From Arenicellales bacterium (GTDB lineage: Bacteria > Pseudomonadota > Gammaproteobacteria > Arenicellales > JAJDZL01): 64,000 bases of DNA. A program made the position numbers and the translations under genes. Below are positions 2,766-12,708 of this stretch, piece after piece (within the stretch, counting starts at the first letter, position 1; the number at the start of each line of letters is the position of its first letter). The notes beneath the pieces are model-generated. The model was given only the letters and a program-made list of their open reading frames with translations. It ran no database searches and was not told the DNA's origin. The stretch lies in NCBI GenBank assembly GCA_958295885.1, contig OY282380.1:2666001-2730000 (forward strand), in the 5' to 3' direction.

Positions 2766-3183
2766 CAACCGGCGTCAGCGGGCGTTTTACGGATTCCAAG
2801 CGCACCGCGGTCTCTTGGCCGCGGTTGTTAATTTCAATCCAATATTGACCCACCATTTCAACCGAAAACTGACCCACCCCAAAACTCCAGTGTGCCGTGG
2901 AAAGGCACTTCTTTTCAGTGGGTGCGAATCCCACTCAACAACTATCGCTCCTATACCATTAACGGATAGCAGTAGTTCAGTCAAATGAACTGCAGTTCAT
3001 TTGACTGAACTACTGCTGCTGGCGGCGACCGGGAGTTACCATGTCGCTCTTGGTGACATTGATCGCCTCAACCGGACTCGTACCTCGGTCGCTCTGCCAC
3101 TTTGAATTTCCTGTAGTAAGTTTGTACCCCGAGTACCAGTATAGGAACCGAAAAATCATGGTGGCCGCCAGCATTGACAATTG
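2766..3183. other. Gene-free stretch with IS-end-like repeats
   Basis: No credible gene is seen. Two direct copies of TGACCCACC (near 2850 and 2873) look like the multiple terminal repeats of an IS21-type end, but no IstA or IstB sequence is nearby. A perfect 50-bp palindrome, listed separately, lies in the middle. Confidence 0.35.
2968..3017. repeat. Perfect 50-bp palindrome
   Basis: Two 25-nt arms meet at CTGCAG (centre 2992.5) with no spacer; the left arm begins AGCAGTAGTTCAGTCAAATG. Every pair from 2968/3017 inward matches and the next outward pair does not. There is no T-run after it, so it is not an ordinary terminator. It would extrude as a cruciform or fold as a hairpin in single-stranded DNA. 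Confidence 0.9.
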
Positions 3184-3297
3184 TAATTAGTGTCTGCCAG
3201 AAAAATCATAATACATTGTTATTATAAGCATAAATGGTCAATCTCTCGGACGAAGATCAAACCTCTTTTGTATAATTAACGGAAATTCAAGTCCATT

Positions 3298-3677
3298 TTG
3301 ACAGATCTTCGAGGTATGAGGGCAATGAGAGTAGTGGAAACTCAGCAGATGCAGTTTGGCGAGCTCGTGATTGGCGACATTGAGATTGATCCGAAGTCGC
3401 GCGACGATGTGCCGGCGGTGCTCAAAGGTCTTCAATGGATTTACTGCCACGAACCCACGCGTCAGCGAGTATTTGAGCTGCTGCAGGAAAAGATACAGCC
3501 TGGGGTCGATATGAAGGTAGGTCGGCCCGGCATGCAGTTGTGGCGGGTGCTGGTGCTGGCGGTGCTCAAGCAGGGTTTGAACTGCGATTTTGATCGCCTG
3601 CAGGATTACGCCAACCATCACAATACGGTGCGTCAGATGCTGGAACACAGCGTCGGCTTTCACCGCGGCAAGCCGAG
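3298..3677 (+). pseudogene. ISNCY transposase, N-terminal piece
   Basis: N-terminal third of an ISNCY transposase, recognised from IGDIEIDPKSRDDVPAVLKGLQ and GRPGMQLWRVLVLAVLKQGL followed by the DFDRLQDYANHHNTVRQM helix. The frame is cut after HRGKPS by the IS3 at 3678. The next residues (KYQLQTLIDNV) resume at 4982, exactly in frame once the IS and one GAG are removed. Confidence 0.85.
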
Positions 3678-3747
3678 TGGTCCTACCCCGATAATGTAGA
3701 GACACTTTAATTGTAGAGTTTACCTAAGAACTGGAGGGAAAACCAAG

Positions 3748-4053
3748 ATGAGTAAAGTGATCTACCCGGAAGAATTAAAAGAGCATATCCTGTCGGAGCA
3801 TGAAGCGGGGATATCGGTGAGAGAGTTGGCTCGTAGATACGAGCCGTCGGCGACCACGATTCAGAATTGGAAGCGTCAAGCCAAGTTGAAGGCGAGTCAG
3901 CCGGAGGCGGGCGCTGGGAGTGAAGCGGAGTTGCGCCGTTGCAAGCGTCGTATTGAGCAGTTGGAGCAGGAGAATGCGTTCTTAAAAAAAGCCGCGGCCT
4001 GGTTCGCCGCGGACGGCGTGACCCACAGTGGTGGAACCAGGCGTACGAACTGA
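3748..4053 (+). CDS. IS3 OrfA, helix-turn-helix subunit
   Basis: 101-aa OrfA with an N-terminal helix-turn-helix (SVRELARRYEPSATTIQNWKRQ) and a C-terminal leucine-zipper helix (CKRRIEQLEQENAFLKK). TGGAGGG lies upstream of the ATG. Near its end is A AAA AAG inside the A7 run at 3984-3990, a classic -1 slippery site. Ribosomes slipping there would produce the OrfAB transposase. Confidence 0.88.
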   Translation: MSKVIYPEELKEHILSEHEAGISVRELARRYEPSATTIQNWKRQAKLKASQPEAGAGSEAELRRCKRRIEQLEQENAFLKKAAAWFAADGVTHSGGTRRTN

Positions 4054-4973
4054 TTGAAGTCGAGCGCAAAAATTTCACGATTCGTCTGATGTGTCGAGTG
4101 TTGGAGATTTCAGAATCGGGTTATTATCGGTGGCGCCAGCGCCAGCCGAGTCGTCGTTCGCAGCAAAATGAGAAGTTGCTGGCGTCGATTCGTGGCATCA
4201 TGGTTGCCAGCCAATGGAGCTATGGTGCGCCCCGCGTGGCGGCGCAGTTGTGCAGAAATGGAGTCAAGGTGAGCGTGAATCGAGTGGCGCGTCTGATGCG
4301 AGTGGCGGGTCTGTCGGCGTCGGTGCCGAAAAAGTATGTGCAGAGCACCCGTCGTGGTGCTCGGACGCATGGAATTGAAGATCGAGTCAATCGTCAGTTT
4401 GGCGTTGCCGAGCCGGATCAGCTGTGGGTGGCGGATGCGACCTATCTGTATACTTTGGACGGCACGCTGTATCTGGCGGTGGTGCAGGACGCCTGCAGTC
4501 GGCGCATTTTGGGTTGGGCGATGCAGACTTGCCAAGATGTCGGTTTGATGAGCCAGGCCTTGCAGATGGCACTTCGAGGTCGACGTTGCAAAGGTGTGAT
4601 TCACCATTCGGATCAAGGCACACAGTACAGTGCGAAGGCGTTTCAAGGGTTGTGTCGAGCGCATGGGATTGAGCAGTCGATGGGCAGTGTCGGCGACTGT
4701 TATGACAATGCGCAGGCGGAGTCCTGGTTTGCCACCTTGAAACGCGAAAGCGTGTTGCAGACGGATCCGTTGAAGTCGGCCAAGGAGCTCAGACGTCAGG
4801 TGATTCGTTATATTGAATCGTGGTATAACACCCGAAGGTTGCATTCGAGTCTGGGATACATGAGTCCGATCGACTATGAAGCGCAGCTGAAAAAAACGCA
4901 GTCGGAGTTTGCTTCCGCCCAATTGGGCGGAAGCAAACTCTCAAATACTAACGTCTCTACCAAATCGGGGTAA
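3990..4973 (+). CDS. IS3 OrfB, catalytic part reached by -1 frameshift
   Basis: rve-type DDE integrase domain. The frame opens directly after the A7 slippery run (SRGLVRRGRRDPQWWNQAY) and the first internal ATG is at 4089. Catalytic residues lie in LWVADATYL (Asp), IHHSDQGTQY (Asp) and AQAESWFATLKRE (Glu), followed by YNTRRLHSSLGYMSP. It is intact and probably made only as the OrfAB fusion. The last codons lie in a 36-bp palindrome. Confidence 0.88.
   Translation, partial: SRGLVRRGRRDPQWWNQAYELIEVERKNFTIRLMCRVLEISESGYYRWRQRQPSRRSQQNEKLLASIRGIMVASQWSYGAPRVAAQLCRNGVKVSVNRVARLMRVAGLSASVPKKYVQSTRRGARTHGIEDRVNRQFGVAEPDQLWVADATYLYTLDGTLYLAVVQDACSRRILGWAMQTCQDVGLMSQALQMALRGRRCKGVIHHSDQGTQYSAKAFQGLCRAHGIEQSMGSVGDCYDNAQAESWFATLKRESVLQTDPLKSAKELRRQVIRYIESWYNTRRLHSSLGYMSPIDYEAQLKKTQSEFASAQLGGSKLSNTNVSTKSG
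4905..4940. repeat. 36-bp perfect palindrome at the IS3 3' end
   Basis: Arms GAGTTTGCTTCCGCCCAA and its exact complement meet without a loop. It overlaps the last codons of orfB. No T-run follows, so it may block read-through or serve transposition rather than act as a simple terminator. Confidence 0.85.
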
Positions 4974-4981
4974 GGCTAGAG

Positions 4982-5768
4982 CAAGTATCAGCTGCAGACG
5001 CTGATCGACAATGTATCGCTGCTGAGCCCTGAGCTGCTGTCGGAGATCAGTCAGTTGGTGGTGGCCGGCGGTCACGAGCTGGTTGGACATAAGCCTGGTG
5101 AGCCATTACGCGGTCGCTGTGACTCGTTTGTGGTTGAGACCAACGTAAAGTATCCCACGGACGTAGGACTGTTGCGCGATGCGATCCGTTGCATGGTGCG
5201 CGAGACGGCGCGGGCGGCGGACCAATATGGACTGGCGGGCTGGCGTCAGCACAAGAAATTACTGAAAGAGTTGAGAAAGTTGTTCAATCGGGTACGCTCT
5301 TCGCGTGGGTGGAAGAAAAAGCGCAAGGTGAGGGACTATGTTGCCCATTGTCAGAGGTTGTTGAAGCGTTCTCAAGCGACGGTATCCGAGCTCAAAAGCA
5401 AACTTGAGCAACTTCCGCTTTTAGTACAGATGATTGAGAATTATCAAGGATATGGACTGCGTCAGTTGGATCAGGTGAGGCGTCGGCTGCTGGACGGTGA
5501 AACGATTGCGCACGAGGAAAAAGTGTTTTCGATTTTCGAGCCGCACACGCGCTGGATCGTAAAAGGCAAAGCCGGCGTGCCGGTCGAGTTGGGCCTGCCG
5601 GTGTGCATCTTAGAGGATCAGCATCAGTTCGTTTTGCATCATAAGATTCTGTGGCAAGGCTCGGATGTGGTTGTGGCGGTGCCGATGGTCAAGGAGACAC
5701 AGGCGCGGTTTTCCGATGTGCGGATGGTCAGTTTTGACAAGGGACTTCGTATGATTTGTCAAGTCTAA
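4982..5768 (+). pseudogene. ISNCY transposase, middle piece
   Basis: Catalytic core of the interrupted ISNCY transposase: KYQLQTLIDNVSLLSPELL, then VETNVKYPTDVGLLRDAIR with the first acidic residue, a basic coiled region (RSSRGWKKKRKVRDYV) and VFSIFEPHTRWIVKGKAG. The family sequence ends at VSFDKG (5743). The remaining codons to the TAA at 5766 belong to the inserted IS110. The missing end resumes at 11216 with FHSPHNRR. Confidence 0.85.
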
Positions 5769-5802
5769 AATCAGTAAGAATGTCCGATCCAATTGATTGA
5801 TT

Positions 5803-6290
5803 CTAGGCGGCCTCCTGCAGACTGCGTGGGACTTGATATAAGGAATTGCTGCGAAGCATGGCGCAGACTACGTTAAGTAGACGATCCCCGACCGTTCGCA
5901 AGGCTTGTCCATGAGATTTCCCTCGCTTACGCAAAGCCTGATATTTCTGCTTGCAGTGAGCATCGTGCAGACAGGCATTGGCCGCCCAGTGGTAAAGCGC
6001 GTTTTGGAGCAGCTGATTGACTGCGCGTCGTTGGCACACCACGAGTTTACGTCCGGAACGTTTGGTCACCGGTGCGACGCCACTGAGCGTGCGCAAAGCA
6101 CTATAGTTTCTTTGTTTCAGCGCCGGTTCTGCTTCTGAGAACAGCACCGCCATGGTGTTGATGCCGAGTCCGGGCACCGACTGTAAGATTTCAACATCAC
6201 TGTATTGTGTGTCGGTGGCGCTGGCATCGTCGTCTTCACTCGGAGAATTTTGCTTGGCGTCAATGATATCTTTGATCTGCCGATCGCAGG
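5803..6290 (-). pseudogene. IS110 transposase, C-terminal half
   Basis: Transposase_20 domain: ILQSVPGLGINTMAVLFSEA, then LRTLSGVAPVTKRSGRK and the typical NALYHWAANACL segment. Its frame continues upstream to NTCDRQIKDIIDAK at 6290 and stops at the GCAGG target duplication of the inserted element. The N-terminal half lies at 10030-10798. Confidence 0.85.
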
Positions 6291-6419
6291 TGTTGTACTC
6301 CTAATTAGTCCGTAGCAATAGTTCAAATTTCGAAATAAACCGAGCCCGTCCGTTCACAGCTGGCAGCCGTTCTGAAAAGCGGCCTTGGCTACACCAACGC
6401 CATTGACCGAACGCAAACA

Positions 6420-6456
6420 GCAGGGGCACCGCGGTCGCCGACCGCGGTGCCCCTGC
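6420..6456. repeat. GC-rich perfect hairpin near the left end
   Basis: 17-bp stem GCAGGGGCACCGCGGTC with a 3-nt loop, about 130 bp inside the left end of the TniAB-like element. Only CTTTAGATTT follows, so a rho-independent terminator is possible but weak. It could insulate the element from outside transcription. Confidence 0.7.
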
Positions 6457-6559
6457 CTTTAGATTTATACTCTTTGACTCAATCGCCGCATCCGCGTGTT
6501 TAGACCATCCGGATGCGACAGACCGTGTTTGAATCGTGCCGAATCAAGGAGCAATGGAC

Positions 6560-7162
6560 ATGCAGCTGCGCTACGACACACAACTGACTGTCAACGAGTA
6601 TATTAGCACCAAAGCCTGGGAAAAGGCAACTCTTTCGAGCTGTCCCAACCATCCCAAGGGCGGCTGCTCACTGGCTCGCCACGGCACCTACACCCGCAAG
6701 TGCGGGCGCGGACGCATCGCCCGGATCGCACGCTGGTATTGTGCCGACAGTCACACCACATTCTCTCTGCTGCCGGACTGTCTTGCGGCGCGAATGCCCG
6801 GCAGCCTCAGGCAGCTCGAACAAATTGCAGCGGCCATCGAACAAAATCAAGAACCGCTTGAAGCGATGAAGTGCTTTCGAGCCAACGCCGACCATGTCGA
6901 CCCGGCGGCACAACTTCGCTGGCTGGCGCGTCAGCTGCCGGCGCTGCAGCGGGTGCTGGTGACGGTGTGCGGGCTTTTGCCTGATGTTTTTGCCGGCTGC
7001 CCGCCGGCGGTGCTGCCGATGCGGGCGGCACTCGATGCGCCCTGGCTGCTGTCGGCGCTGCGAGAGCACTGCGCCGAACATCTGCACTGTCTGCCGCCTC
7101 CGCTTGGATTTTTTCAGATTCGTTCGTCGACCGACCCGCCACAGAGCGTCAACACTTGTTGA
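6560..7162 (+). CDS. Zinc-ribbon protein of the TniAB-like element (DUF6431-like)
   Basis: About 200 aa. The N-terminal part has Cys/His pairs suited to a zinc ribbon (SSCPNHPKGGCSLARHGTYTR and ARWYCADSHTTFSLLP), followed by a mainly helical region. Such small proteins precede the DDE transposase and ExeA-like ATPase in related elements and probably bind the transposon ends. AAGGAG lies 8 nt before the ATG at 6560; ATG 6554 in the same frame is too close to it. Function is inferred from context. Confidence 0.6.
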   Translation: MQLRYDTQLTVNEYISTKAWEKATLSSCPNHPKGGCSLARHGTYTRKCGRGRIARIARWYCADSHTTFSLLPDCLAARMPGSLRQLEQIAAAIEQNQEPLEAMKCFRANADHVDPAAQLRWLARQLPALQRVLVTVCGLLPDVFAGCPPAVLPMRAALDAPWLLSALREHCAEHLHCLPPPLGFFQIRSSTDPPQSVNTC

Positions 7163-7238
7163 ACTGGCATGTTGCGGGCGGATCGGTTAAAACGTGGGTC
7201 TGAATTGAATGCAACACTGCCAAGCATGGAGCAAATGT

Positions 7239-8042
7239 ATGAAAAAAGACCCTGAACAGCATCGTCTGGACGTGGCGCTGTTTCGCCACGGACTGATCTG
7301 CGAACTCTCGCGTCTGCGACCTGGTGCCGAAACCGCAGAACGCCTGCGCCAGCTGGCGGCACAGCCGCACCTCATTCCGGGTTCAACCCGCACTCGAGTG
7401 TCGGAACAGGCCCTGCGCGACTGGATGCGCCTGTATCGTCAGGGCGGCTTCAAAGCCTTAAAGCCCAAAGTGCGCCGCGACCGCGGCCAGTTCCGACGCA
7501 TGTCGGTCGAAACCATGGAATGTCTGATCTCAATCAAACGTGAAAAACCGCAGTTGGCGGTGCGCGAAGTCATCCAACAGGCAAAAACGCAGCTGCCGCC
7601 GAAGACGCAGCTGCGCGACTCAACGGTGCGGCGCCTGCTGCACCGCGAAGGTCTGATGCAGGCGGCCGCGGCAACCGCCCCGGACTGTCGGCGTTTCGCC
7701 TATCGCTACGCCGGCGAACTGTGGATGTCCGACGTCATGCACGGCCCCAAAATCAAGGTCGGCCAACGTCGTCATCGCAGTTATCTGACCGCCATCATTG
7801 ACGATGCCAGCCGCGTCATCCCCTATGCGGCCTTTGCCCGCTCGGAAAAGGCGCAGGACTTCCTGGTGGTGCTCAAACAGGCACTGCTGCGGCGCGGCCT
7901 GCCGCAGCGGCTGTACGTCGACAACGGTGCCAACTATCGTTCGCAGCATCTGGCCCTGGTGTGCGCCCGACTCGACATCGCGCTGATCCATGCGCGCCCC
8001 TATCACCCTGCCGGTAAAGGAAAAATCGAGCGCTTTGTGTAA
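7239..8042 (+). pseudogene. TniA-like DDE transposase, N-terminal and catalytic part
   Basis: rve-type DDE transposase interrupted by a MITE. A helix-turn-helix region (VSEQALRDWMRLYRQGGFKALKPK) precedes the catalytic core: ELWMSDVMHGP (Asp), LYVDNGANYRS (Asp) and PAGKGKIERF (Glu). The start at 7239 has GGAG 7 nt upstream. The frame is cut after CGCTT at 8035 and ends at a stop inside the insert; the original continuation is the FFRSARDGFVNRLE segment at 8508. Confidence 0.85.
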
Positions 8043-8504
8043 AGCTTTACACAAATCTTTTTATGTAAAGTTTATTGTTATGTAAAGCTCGCGGCAGCAA
8101 CTGCCTGAAAATAAAATGATTATCGGGCAAATTACTTTACATAAATTATGCCCTGGTCACAGCGACACTTTGCAGATGTCTCCAGTCACCTCCTGGATAT
8201 TCTCGAACGATTTAGCCAAAGCAAAAAATTGCGAACAGTGCTGAGCGCGCTCTCGATCATGGTCTGCGAAAGGTTCGCGCCACAGATGCTCGCAAAACTC
8301 AACGGGATATGCACTGAGCGGATCGAGCGTCAGGGTGAAATCCGGATCCGATTTGATTTTCACTGTCATGTGGATTCTCCTGTCGTGGATGACTTAAAGG
8401 AGAAGTCACCATGTATTTTTATGTAAAGCGATTTGACCGATAATCTATTGATAGTGAAGCAGTTTCTACTGAGTGCTTTACATAACAATAAACTTTACAT
8501 AAAG
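8036..8504. mobile_element. 469-bp MITE with iterated CTTTACAT motifs
   Basis: Inserted in the transposase gene with CGCTT duplicated at 8031-8035 and 8505-8509. The ends carry inverted copies of ATGTAAAGTTTATTGTTATG. ATGTAAAG or its complement occurs at least six times, mostly near the ends, as in elements with several transposase-binding sites. It encodes one small minus-strand ORF and no transposase, so it must be moved in trans. Confidence 0.8.
8157..8369 (-). CDS. Small unknown protein carried by the MITE
   Basis: 70-aa ORF starting MTVKIKSDPDFTLTLDPLSAY, with a Cys/Trp/His-containing middle (VEFCEHLWREPFADHD). CAGGAGA lies about 6 nt before the ATG, better than chance for a random ORF. 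No family is recognised. It could be a passenger or the relic of a transposase-linked gene. Confidence 0.45.
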   Translation of the reverse strand: MTVKIKSDPDFTLTLDPLSAYPVEFCEHLWREPFADHDRERAQHCSQFFALAKSFENIQEVTGDICKVSL

Positions 8505-8987
8505 CGCTTCTTCAGAAGTGCGCGGGACGGCTTCGTCAATCGGCTTGAATCGCCTTTGGAACTCGATGCGCTCAACCGCGAGCTGTGGAGCTGGATCGAA
8601 GGCGAGTATCATCGGCGTCCACACCGCGGCATCGACGCCCTAACGCCCTTGGACAAATGGGCGCAGTGCGCCGCCAACGTGCGCCGGGTGACGCCGCAGC
8701 TCGATCTCGATGACCTGTTTCTGTTCGAAACGCAGCGGCGCGTGTACAAAGATCGAACCGTACGCCTGAACTGCCACCTCTACGAGGTCGACGCCGCCCT
8801 GATCGGACAAACCGTCACGCTGCGCTATGACCCGACGCTGCCGCCGACGCGGTCCTTGCTGGTGGTACATCAGGGACAGAGCTTCGGCCAAGCCACGCTG
8901 CTCGACGAATACGCCAACACCAAAGTGAAGCGGACCCGACCTGGCATCTCATTCAGCAGCCTCGAACAGCAGCAGGAGGACGATTGA
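8505..8987 (+). pseudogene. TniA-like DDE transposase, C-terminal part
   Basis: Continues the interrupted transposase exactly in frame after the CGCTT duplication (RFFRSARDGFVNRLE), then WIEGEYHRRPHRGIDALTPLDKW and the Mu-type C-terminal beta-barrel (RRVYKDRTVRLNCHLYEVD). It ends one base into the ATG of the ATPase, so the two were translationally coupled. Confidence 0.85.
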
Positions 8988-9793
8988 TGTTCCAACAGCA
9001 CTTTGCCTTCACCCGCTATCCGTTCGAAGCCTCGCTCGCGGCCGACGAACTGTTCGACACCGAAGCGATGCGCGAAGCCAAGGCCCGCATCAACCACCTG
9101 CTGGAACTGCGCGGCCTCGGCCTGATCACCGGCGAAGCCGGCTGTGGCAAAACCACCTGCTGCCGGCAGGTCATGCAGCAGCTGCCGCCGGGTCTGTATC
9201 GACCGGTCTACGTGTCGCTGACCACCGGCAGCGCACTCGATGCCCTGAACTGCCTCGCACTCGAACTCGGACTGAGCGAACAGCGCCAGCGCGCCAGCCA
9301 ATGGCATGCGATTCGCAACGAAATCACACGCCTGGTGCAGCAGCAAAGACAACTACCGGTGCTGATCATCGATGAAGCCCATCATCTGCGCAACGAAGTG
9401 CTCGAAGACCTGCGTCTTCTGACCAACTTCGCCATGGACTCAGAACCGCGCATGTGCCTGCTGCTGATCGGACTGACCGAACTGAGAAGACGTCTGAACA
9501 TGGGCGTGCACCAATCCCTCAGCCAGCGCCTGGTCATCCGACATCACTTCGGCGCGCTGAACCGCGACGAAACCGAACGCTATCTGCAGCATCGGCTCAG
9601 CCTCGCCGGCGCCGCCGACAAGGTCCGACTGTTCGAGCCCAACGCCATCGAAATGATGCACGCCCAAGCCCGCGGCATGCCCCGCAAGATCAACCGTCTG
9701 GCACATTATGCGCTGTCAGCCGCAGCGCAGGACCAGGCTCGATGCGTTACCTTGCAGCACATGACTCAAGCTGTCGAAGAGTGGCAGGCCTGA
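8987..9793 (+). CDS. ExeA/TniB-like AAA ATPase
   Basis: About 268-aa AAA+ ATPase that would activate and target the DDE transposase, like TniB, TnsC or MuB. Walker A is GEAGCGKTT, Walker B is LIIDEAHH, and an arginine-rich C-terminal lid follows (GMPRKINRLAHYAL). AGGAGG lies 8 nt before the ATG at 8987, which overlaps the transposase stop by 1 nt. This copy is intact; partial copies occur at 22.6 and 28.5 kb. Confidence 0.85.
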   Translation: MFQQHFAFTRYPFEASLAADELFDTEAMREAKARINHLLELRGLGLITGEAGCGKTTCCRQVMQQLPPGLYRPVYVSLTTGSALDALNCLALELGLSEQRQRASQWHAIRNEITRLVQQQRQLPVLIIDEAHHLRNEVLEDLRLLTNFAMDSEPRMCLLLIGLTELRRRLNMGVHQSLSQRLVIRHHFGALNRDETERYLQHRLSLAGAADKVRLFEPNAIEMMHAQARGMPRKINRLAHYALSAAAQDQARCVTLQHMTQAVEEWQA

Positions 9794-10029
9794 ACCTGCT
9801 GCCGCCAGCCCAACCCAGCTGGAGCGCCCGCTCCAGCTGGAATCTCTCTTGTGCCTCTCAAAACATCGCCAAAATCCCTAGCTCAAGCCGCTGACGCACA
9901 TCGCCGCCAGCCACGTTGCCTCAATTTTGAATCCGACAATTTTGTTGGAACAATGTGATTCATTGAATAATTTCGTTCCGATTTAATTTGAATAAGCAGT
10001 TTCAACTTAATCTGGAATTCAACAGCAGG

Positions 10030-10798
10030 TTTCAAGCAGCTGGAGCAACAGCCGCAACTGCTGCACCAGGTGGTTGACTTGAAGGGCTCGCGCTGGGGCA
10101 ATCAGGTCGCTTCCTGGCAGCGGCGGCTGACGCAGGAGCTGCTGCAGGGTCGGGGCATCAATGCGACGAATGCGATGCTGCTTGAGTAATTTTTTCAAAG
10201 TGCCCAGCTGCAGTCGACGCGCCTGATCGGGGGTTGGAGCTTGGAGCAGAAGCTGCAGGAACCACTTTTGTGAGACATCTTTGACGGCTTCCAGGACGGC
10301 TGGGAAATAGGACCATAGAAGTTCTTTCAACTGATTGCAATCTTTGACTTTTTGCTTGACCAGCTGGTCTCTTTCATGAACCAAGGTGCGCAGCAGATGC
10401 TGTTGTTCGGTCAATGCTGGAGCAAGTCGAAAAGCATCGCTGTCGGTCGCAAGCGCACGGGCGATGACGAACGCATCGCGGCGGTCATCTTTGGCACCGG
10501 CAGGCGAGAGTCGGTCGCGGAAGCGGTTGGACTGCAGCGGATTGATGGAGAACACTTCCAAGTCGTGCGCCTGCAAGGCTAAGACCAGCGGGCCATGTGG
10601 CACTTCGAGCCCTATCTTCAGCTGCTGCGCATCGCCGCCTGTGGTCTGCAGCAACCATGGCGCCAGCTCAATGAGATGCTCAGAACAGTGATCCAAGGTA
10701 CGCCGAGCGAGGATTTGCCGATTAGCATCGAGCACACAGACTTCATGTCGAGTTCGTCCCCAGTCGATGCCGACATAGCAGTTGGATTGAGGTTGCAT
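10030..10798 (-). pseudogene. IS110 transposase, N-terminal half
   Basis: RuvC-like DEDD domain starting MQPQSNCYVGIDWGRTRHEV with the first Asp, then GLEVPHGPL and AKDDRRDAFVIARAL, followed by the coiled helical linker. GAGGAA stands 8 nt upstream of the ATG. It is cut at 10030 by the TniAB-like element, and the rest lies at 5803-6290. Confidence 0.85.
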
Positions 10799-11215
10799 GG
10801 TTAAGTTCCTCGGGGATGGGATTGAGTTATACTCAAAAACGGATGAGGCATCAACACCCAACGCCACGGAGCCTGTACTAGGGTTGTTAGAACACTGACT
10901 TCGTATAGGTGATCATTGGGCGTTACCCCATCTAGGCGCAAATCCCTTGCAGGTGTGCAAAGACGCTGGCTTTCACTAGGCCGCTCTAGATGGGGTGCCA
11001 AATCCGTTTCATGATGGCGATCATGCGCAAGTTCGTTCCATCCCATGTTCATCTTGTGCAACATCGCCGTGTTGAGTGAATCAATTCAAATTGATTGTCG
11101 TTTTCGCACAAAGTGGGATTTAAATCCCACTTTGTGCGAAGTATTGCAGTGATTGATCTTTCATCATAAAACATGACAGAATGAATTCAAATTGGTTGTT
11201 GGTTAATGGTACAGG
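10799..11215. ncRNA. Candidate bridge-RNA region of the split IS110
   Basis: About 417 nt without a gene between the IS110 transposase start and the right IS boundary, the place where IS110-group elements encode their bridge RNA. It holds a long-range pair CCCCATCTAG (about 10926) with CTAGATGGGG (about 10986) and a perfect 38-bp palindrome further right. Location and structure support the idea; transcription is not shown. Confidence 0.4.
11103..11140. repeat. 38-bp perfect palindrome in the IS110 left end
   Basis: Arms of 19 nt beginning TTCGCACAAAGTGGGATTT, centred on TTTAAA, with no loop. It may be part of the IS110 end structure or a transcription block. Confidence 0.85.
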
Positions 11216-11549
11216 CTTTCATAGTCCGCACAACCGTCGGCAATTGGATCAGATGCTGGAGCTCAATGCACTGCCGTGCAAAGGCAAATTGAGCAAAAAG
11301 AATCAGGCGCGGGAACAGGCGGCTGAATTCGTGGCGGCGCGCAAGCAGCATTCGGCGGTAGAATCGGCGGTGAACAATCTGGAGCATCGAGGTTTGGACC
11401 GGGTTCGCAGTCATGGTGCGGACGGTTTTGCACGCACGGTTTCGCTGTCGGTCCTGGCCGCCAATGTGCATCGCATTGGTCTGGTGCTGCAGCGCGCGGA
11501 ACGCGACCGGATTCGGCGGCAGAAAAAAGCACGTTTGCGCGTGGCCTGA
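11216..11549 (+). pseudogene. ISNCY transposase, C-terminal piece
   Basis: Conserved tail of the ISNCY transposase: FHSPHNRRQLDQMLE, CKGKLSKKNQAREQAAEFVAAR, then KQHSAVESAVNNLEHRGLDR containing the last catalytic Glu region, and ADGFARTVSLSVLAANVHRIG. It joins in frame to the piece ending at 5743. Confidence 0.85.
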
Positions 11550-11741
11550 CGCAACGGCGTCGCTCCCGGATGGCTTCAAATCCCCTCTCTGCAGGCACGG
11601 GGAGATAGGGACGCGTCTGTAAAACCCGCCAAAATCGCAAAATTCAAAGAATCGCCTGCAAATTGACGGCGGCGCCATCTTTTGTGCGAAATTCATCCAA
11701 AATATTCTGAAAATCCCCTAAGAAATTTGAAAAAAGAGGGG
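11550..11741. other. ISNCY 3' non-coding end
   Basis: No gene seen. AT-rich sequence between the transposase stop and the right terminal repeat. Confidence 0.5.
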
Positions 11742-11781
11742 TTTTCTGGCAGACACTAATTACTAGTGAAAGATCAAACGA

Positions 11782-12054: not shown

Positions 12055-12708
12055 ATGAAGAAATTGCATTCAATTCAAGCCAATACAGCTTCACGTCAGG
12101 CGACCTATCAAGATGTGCTGGATGCGCCACAACACATGGTTGCGGAGATTGTCGATGGCAAGCTCTACACGCACCCGAGACCAGCTTTTGGTCATGCCTT
12201 AGCCAGTTCTGTGCTTGGACATTCTATTGGTCCTCCTTTTCACCAAGGCCGCGGCGGACCTGGTGGTTGGTGGATAGTTGACGAACCTGAACTCCATCTA
12301 GGCGAGGACATTTTGGTGCCTGACATCGCAGGATGGCGACGTGAGCGAATGCCTGTATTTCCAACCGGAGCCTACAGCACATTGGCTCCGGACTGGGTGT
12401 GCGAGGTGCTTTCCCCTTCGACCCGTAAGCTTGATCTTGGCGGCAAGCGAGCGATTTACGCCCGCGAGGGTGTTGGCTTTCTTTGGTTGGTAGATCCACA
12501 TGCCCGCTCGCTGGAAGCATTTGAGTTGCACGGTACTGAATGGGTGGTGATAGACAAGCTGTTCGATGATGCGTCAGTATCGTTACCGCCATTTGGGGCG
12601 GTCAGTTTCAATCTCGGTGATTTGTGGCCACCGCATGCTGTGCACCAAGAGCTGCCGAGCAAGCCGACTGCTGAAACTGAACCGGAGTCGATTGAAACCT
12701 CAAAGTAA
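12055..12708 (+). CDS. Uma2-family (DUF820) PD-(D/E)XK endonuclease-like protein
   Basis: 217 aa. The fold signature is complete: YQDVLDAPQHMVAEIVDG at the N-terminus, LHLGEDILVPDIAGWRRER with the catalytic Asp, and the block APDWVCEVLSPSTRKLDL...KRAIYAREGVGFLWLVDP with the Glu and Lys of the nuclease core. Uma2 proteins are abundant in cyanobacteria and sulfur bacteria; their biological role is unclear. A near-identical paralogue lies at 59650. About 240 nt of conserved leader separate it from J-site 1, and both copies share that leader. Confidence 0.85.
   Translation: MKKLHSIQANTASRQATYQDVLDAPQHMVAEIVDGKLYTHPRPAFGHALASSVLGHSIGPPFHQGRGGPGGWWIVDEPELHLGEDILVPDIAGWRRERMPVFPTGAYSTLAPDWVCEVLSPSTRKLDLGGKRAIYAREGVGFLWLVDPHARSLEAFELHGTEWVVIDKLFDDASVSLPPFGAVSFNLGDLWPPHAVHQELPSKPTAETEPESIETSK

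Follow-up and report, generated by a model that had tools for sequence, protein, structure and literature searches.

Nested mobile elements in an Arenicellales genome and a RIT-derived miniature insert whose junctions suggest a two-site circular intermediate

RIT (recombinase-in-trio) elements are about 3.5 kb long and are described in PMC3414803 as having variable ends and an inverted repeat of 28-9 bp that overlaps a palindrome; one of them lies in a transposase gene, and others were located in radC and in an IS66 tnpA (PMC2864759). Strand-biased circularizing integrative (SE) elements and GInts are also three-integrase elements, and according to PMC10214605 the short spacer of the SE circle joint goes to one end while the target's own bases remain at the other. 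Their joint differs, however, in having a 6-bp spacer between two motifs, and the term 'palindrom' is missing from the main text of that paper, in which Tn916 and Tn554 are also named. Miniature inverted-repeat transposable elements (MITEs) are short, have inverted ends and no intact mobility gene, and are presumably mobilized in trans. Tn916 and Tn554 have coupling-sequence-like junctions made by tyrosine recombinases, similar to those of RITs, although the enzymes differ; to our knowledge, neither has a two-site palindromic joint. Here, we compare these systems with a 469-bp insert at the center of a nest of mobile elements in a 64,000-nucleotide stretch (hereafter, the window) of an Arenicellales bacterium (GenBank assembly GCA_958295885.1, contig OY282380.1, positions 2,666,001 to 2,730,000 of the forward strand), a 4.42-Mb single-contig genome. 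The insert is most likely a non-autonomous miniature RIT (mini-RIT) that moves as a circle through trans-supplied tyrosine recombinases and has two opposed attachment sites.

The insert resembles RITs in its inverted ends, the palindrome by one end, its location in a conserved gene (a transposase gene, as for some RITs), and a RitC remnant. It differs in size, in the lack of an intact recombinase gene, and in the proposed two-site circle, which is absent from the RIT description in the available text of PMC3414803. Its 86-bp terminal inverted repeats carry a motif spaced at 17 bp, and in a Bradyrhizobium RIT ATTATGCGGAG recurs with that same period. The 20-bp palindrome lies 5 bp outside one end only, a trait derived here from RIT loci, and the insertion falls within the conserved coding motif KIERFF of a TniA-like transposase, just as full-length RITs occupy IS66 TnpB and strawberry-notch genes. 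The three adjacent, overlapping tyrosine recombinase genes of RITs are absent from positions 8035-8503, and because only the RitC remnant remains, we label the insert RIT-derived rather than a complete RIT. A relic elsewhere in the genome (L041, C1:4402500-4402920) matches the remnant DNA over 41 bp at 88% and encodes TGDIRKVSLWLGH and STEVYLRVDP...DAARQ, a tyrosine recombinase C-terminus, beyond which come a similar end and a tniA target fragment. Within L041 lies a further small insertion, which has inverted ends (GGCTGTGAAAGTATT) and a direct repeat, CCATAG.

Junctions are written here as target-o(5)-P(20)-i(5)-core-r(5)-target, where P is the palindrome, o and i are the 5-bp sites outside and inside it, and r is the 5-bp site on the core side. 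The window reads GCGCT-P-ATCTT-core-GCGCT. A second copy, at C1:2940266-2940741 (L016), lies inverted in a 97%-identical TniAB-like element, occupies the same tniA codons, is identical over the main block (457/457), and reads AAGAT-P-AGCGC-core-AAGAT. The two host alleles, ATC GAG CGC TTC TTC in the window and ATT GAA AGA TTT TTC in L016, both encode I-E-R-F-F, and each type is also present empty in this genome (L015, ATC GAG; L017, ATT GAA). When reverse-complemented, the L016 unit (o, P, i, and core; 474 bp) matches the window unit exactly after rotation (474/474). Both copies are therefore accounted for by a single circle that can open at one or the other of two sites beside P. Sequences resembling P (up to 3 mismatches) occur at three places in the genome, all in tniA-like genes at the same codons, and a reversed control gave none. 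The third is a relic (L049, C1:163382-163428; P at 163382-163401) that reads AAGAT, degenerate palindrome, ATCTT, and then unrelated sequence, at the same tniA codons.

These junctions suggest the following route. The mini-RIT would be excised as a circle by RitA, RitB, and RitC supplied in trans. In that circle, [5 bp]-[20-bp palindrome]-[5 bp] would separate the two facing core ends, creating two opposed attachment sites. Either site could join the target, so that the palindrome may come to lie on either side of the integrated element, in either orientation. After integration, r would be the target's own 5 bp, o beyond the palindrome could derive from the circle, and i would retain a record of an earlier target; this strand polarity we infer from the junctions. 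The two near-identical copies imply recent movement, with a helper that has been lost, lies outside the assembly, or is an unrecognized enzyme.

Full-length RITs have the same layout. The L041-type RitC C-terminus matches 147 plasmid records (best, 62%). Eleven occupied plasmid loci were inspected, and in 10 of them (L045-L048, L056, L057, and L059-L062) the RitC-type gene is the third of three consecutive tyrosine recombinase genes; they fit the description of RIT elements in PMC3414803. The exception, L044, has a less regular arrangement. A search with a RitC alignment (A1) gave 505 relatives in genome contigs, and the best 80 of them plus the 11 plasmid loci made a set of 91, of which 61 had inverted ends. 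Among those 61, the 41 with E <= 1e-6 and 160 bp of sequence flanking each side were scored for a palindrome with 8 or more of 10 positions paired. It was present on exactly one side in 30/41, by ritC in 16 and by ritA in 14, and on both sides in one locus (1/41); control windows 100 bp away gave 2/41. In the locus with two palindromes, L068, the element's site may have been used twice. Rotated pairs were also found among full-length elements: L047 and L060 of Bradyrhizobium, at the same IS66 TnpB site, are identical by rotation at 3411/3418 positions, and L057 and L056, on two Sphingobium YBL2 plasmids, at 3722/3725.

Five insertions can be compared with an empty site: the window (L015), L016 (L017), L047 (L058), L048 (L055), and L057 (L158), the sites of L048 and L057 being read by eye. 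In all five, r is the empty-site sequence, as is o in 3/5; L159 and L160, the empty-site relatives for L059, are too diverged to tell r from o. A script called both sites in 18 loci, and o and r agree in just 4 of them; integration between unlike 5-mers is therefore common. This recalls SE joints, since spacer and target bases are split between the ends there too (PMC10214605). In 15 of 20 related, non-independent sphingomonad-type RITs, the inner 5-mer, once reverse-complemented, is the same as r at some other locus. Unreversed, it matches in none, and random flank 5-mers (1000 draws) averaged 0.04 matches, with at most 1. It thus looks as though the 5-bp sites preserve traces of former targets.

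Three other explanations were weighed. The 5-bp sites could be fixed target mimics, evolved to fit two common alleles, in place of any memory, and indeed both mini-RIT sites match this genome's two tniA alleles exactly. We consider this rather unlikely: the 20 closely related sphingomonad-type loci hold 8 different inner 5-mers, and a donor-derived 5-mer is needed to explain why L047 and L048 have hybrid o/r junctions. It is improbable that a single ancestral insertion was inverted in place, by inverted-repeat or site-specific recombination, and then spread with the TniAB-like element. Long inverted repeats are available for such an event, and the flanks of L047 and L060 match for several hundred base pairs, so that this pair could be one inverted insertion. 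Inversion of the core alone, however, would leave the outer and inner 5-mers unexchanged; the flanks of the window copy and L016 are different tniA alleles, each also present empty; and the mini-RIT copies are 457/457 identical, compared with about 97% for the elements hosting them. An ordinary DDE-transposon MITE with a 5-bp target duplication, the label given by the sequence-only reading, fits the inverted ends and short direct repeat and is hardly credible given the one-sided palindrome with its inner 5-mer, the exact permutation of the second copy with its inner/outer 5-mer swap, the RitC remnant, and the same layout in full-length RITs, all of which point to the tyrosine-recombinase type rather than the DDE type with symmetric ends flanked directly by a duplication. 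We thus reject the last two explanations.

Several observations weigh against a trans-mobilized, two-site mini-RIT. The proposal comes from fixed insertions, and no recombination product has been seen. Queries with RitC and RitA (RitB was not searched) detected no RIT trio in the genome, which leaves the recombinase source missing. The N-terminal part of the 70-aa open reading frame (ORF) that ends in the RitC remnant resembles no RIT protein. In the wider survey, inverted ends were detected in 61/91 loci, the others giving none or being too short, and 10/41 lacked a palindrome at threshold, three of these (L048, L056, and L057) having a degenerate one (7 of 10 pairs). The scarcity of loci with o equal to r means that 5-bp identity is not required, and the exact match in both mini-RIT copies could be history rather than targeting. 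Finally, the inner-site matches show that the site is target-like and do not give the frequency with which it changes.

Relatives of the mini-RIT were sought more widely. It had no match in the other 5 genomes of its family, the other 397 genomes of its phylum, or plasmids; the exact 18-bp palindrome core had none in viral contigs, and the 70-aa ORF none in plasmids, Pfam, or NCBIfam. A RitC C-terminal query found its sole match among 185 genomes of the class in this genome, where the RitC and RitA matches were read as remote tyrosine recombinases of different kinds, except that RitC also matched the L041 relic. The end motif (up to 2 mismatches) occurs in 8 other genomes of 369. The sites inspected in three of these, all of the same class (L144, L147, and L149), were not counted as RITs, as TTGTGGAAAGTAAGTGATTATGTAAAG there adjoins the end of an apparently different tyrosine recombinase gene. 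With tniA target-region DNA as the query, plasmids yielded one weak match. No paper on miniature RITs was found among the literature on RIT and MITE terms; Ricker 2013, which lies outside that set, may partly cover end structure.

The surrounding nest is confirmed as genuine, and all four containments hold. A self-search of the genome revealed an intact or empty copy of each container element, enabling junctions to be compared with true empty sites. These bear out the sequence-only reading of successive invasions, although its five levels overcount by one: IS3 and IS110 are siblings within ISNCY, IS110 holds the TniAB-like element, and the latter holds the insert, giving five elements at four depths. 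ISNCY inserted first, followed by IS3 and IS110 in either order, then the TniAB-like element, and then the mini-RIT. The outer four are ordinary successive insertions, and nests of this kind are commonplace. Removing the inserts restores ORFs of 434 aa (TniA-like), 418 aa (IS110), and 485 aa (ISNCY), as had been proposed. Each is exactly as long as its counterpart in the intact copies (L015, L011-L013, and L009, respectively), whose DNA aligns across each site; to that extent the nest withstands the refutation set by the sequence-only reading, restored proteins that do not align with homologues.

Table 1. Elements, genes, and sites of the nest (positions within the window)
Feature	Position	Strand	Details
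ISNCY-family element, outermost	3189..11757	+	restored transposase 485 aa; intact copy L009, 98-99.6% identical; NF033593 pieces
Likely 4-bp AATT repeat of ISNCY	3185-3188 and 11758-11761
IS3-family element	3678..4978	+	GAG target repeats 3675-3677, 4979-4981; copies L018-L020, 98-99.8% identical
IS110-family element	5744..11213	-	transposase on minus strand, split by TniAB-like element; intact copies L011-L013
TniAB-like element	6291..10024	+	ends TGTTG...CAACA; GCAGG repeats 6286-6290, 10025-10029; copies L015, L016, L017
First ORF of TniAB-like element	6560..7162	+	no family match found
TniA-like DDE transposase gene	7209..8987	+	interrupted at 8030-8508; restored 434 aa
TniB-like AAA ATPase gene	8987..9793	+
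Outer 5-bp site o, GCGCT	8030..8034	+	Glu codon last base, Arg codon, Phe codon first base of interrupted gene
20-bp palindrome P, TTGTGTAAAGCTTTACACAA	8035..8054	+
Inner 5-bp site i, ATCTT	8055..8059	+	reverse complement AAGAT is the other copy's target
Mini-RIT core (putative), 444 bp	8060..8503	+
Left terminal inverted repeat	8060..8145	+	motif TTATGTAAAG at 8061 and 8078, 17-bp period
RitC remnant TGDICKVSL	8147..8187	-	compare TGDIRKVSLWLGH
70-aa ORF ending in RitC remnant	8157..8369	-
Right terminal inverted repeat	8418..8503	-	83% identity with left
Target-side 5-bp site r, GCGCT	8504..8508	+

In the outer container, L009 reads uninterrupted through both sites claimed for IS3 and IS110, aligning to window positions 3175-3677, 4979-5747, and 11214-11762 without either insert. 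Its IS3 empty site is AAGCCGAGCAAG, with a single GAG, and its IS110 empty site reads GACAAGGGCTTTCATAG, the 2-bp GG cores in the window lying at 5742-5743 and 11214-11215. The ISNCY assignment comes from two protein pieces matching NCBIfam NF033593, each under the whole-protein cut-off (the scores being those of the pieces), and the nest, placed earlier at 3184, most likely starts with ISNCY at 3189. The IS3 transposase scored 302.5 bits against a profile cut-off of 160, which together with the 3-bp GAG duplication places that element in IS3; a DEDD transposase and the 2-bp core do the same for IS110. The sites occupied by ISNCY copies are palindromic if one repeat is counted once, for example GGTGATTAATTAATCACC in L009 and GACTAGCTAGTC in L027 (3183-3188 in the window). 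The IS110 copies L011-L014 and that of the window (5742, 11214) share two end sequences, GGACTTCG and GGTACAGGC, one per end, beside differing flanks, and these shared ends are usable for testing guide RNA loops.

Three IS110 copies (L011-L013) continue across the site of the TniAB-like element with a 6-bp alignment overlap. The element's copies L015, L016, and L017 have common ends TGTTGTACT...ATTCAACA. Its DDE transposase with an AAA ATPase, 5-bp duplication, and TG...CA ends are traits shared with Tn7/Tn5053 (TniAB) transposons, and 'TniAB-like' is a fair functional nickname; membership in Tn5053/Tn7 does not follow, as the best NCBIfam profile for the DDE protein is IS481, below its cut-off and with the interrupted protein as query. 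By manual count, 35 residues separate the Glu of KIERFF from the Asp of YVDNG in the restored protein, matching the D-35-E spacing of the integrase superfamily; the insert thus splits the catalytic-glutamate motif. Containment of the insert is clear from L015, which reads through the site as AAAAATCGAGCGCTTCTTCAG. The direct repeat shared by both sides is AGCGCTT overall, which makes the register of the innermost 5-bp repeat ambiguous, and by comparison with RITs we prefer GCGCT to the CGCTT read earlier. One target is favored by the TniAB-like elements, whose sites are GCAGG (window), CCTGC (L016), CCTGC minus one base on one side (L015), and CCTAT (L017). In L017 (C1:1729383-1731515), the ATPase gene is interrupted by about 2.1 kb.

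Beyond the nest, a 50-bp inverted repeat (a self-match on the opposite strand) lies immediately to its left at 2968-3017. A gene at 12055-12708, which presumably encodes a Uma2-like nuclease, has many diverged copies in the genome.

RITs are widespread, and in the literature covered their ends and mobility have yet to be settled. The window insertion and its sister copy provide the clearest junction evidence found here for a two-site circular RIT intermediate. Two insertions of the same putative circle, together with both empty sites in one genome, allow exact junction sequences to be predicted, and a RIT without recombinase genes offers a small, ready-made substrate for laboratory recombination. 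We lean slightly toward a broader view in which RITs generally travel as a two-site palindrome circle with a 5-bp travel log, mini-RITs are mobilized in trans, and one lineage has specialized on the catalytic-Glu codons of a transposase, silencing other transposons. Such a two-site layout would account for the variable-looking ends of RITs, and it frames the question of why three recombinases are kept.

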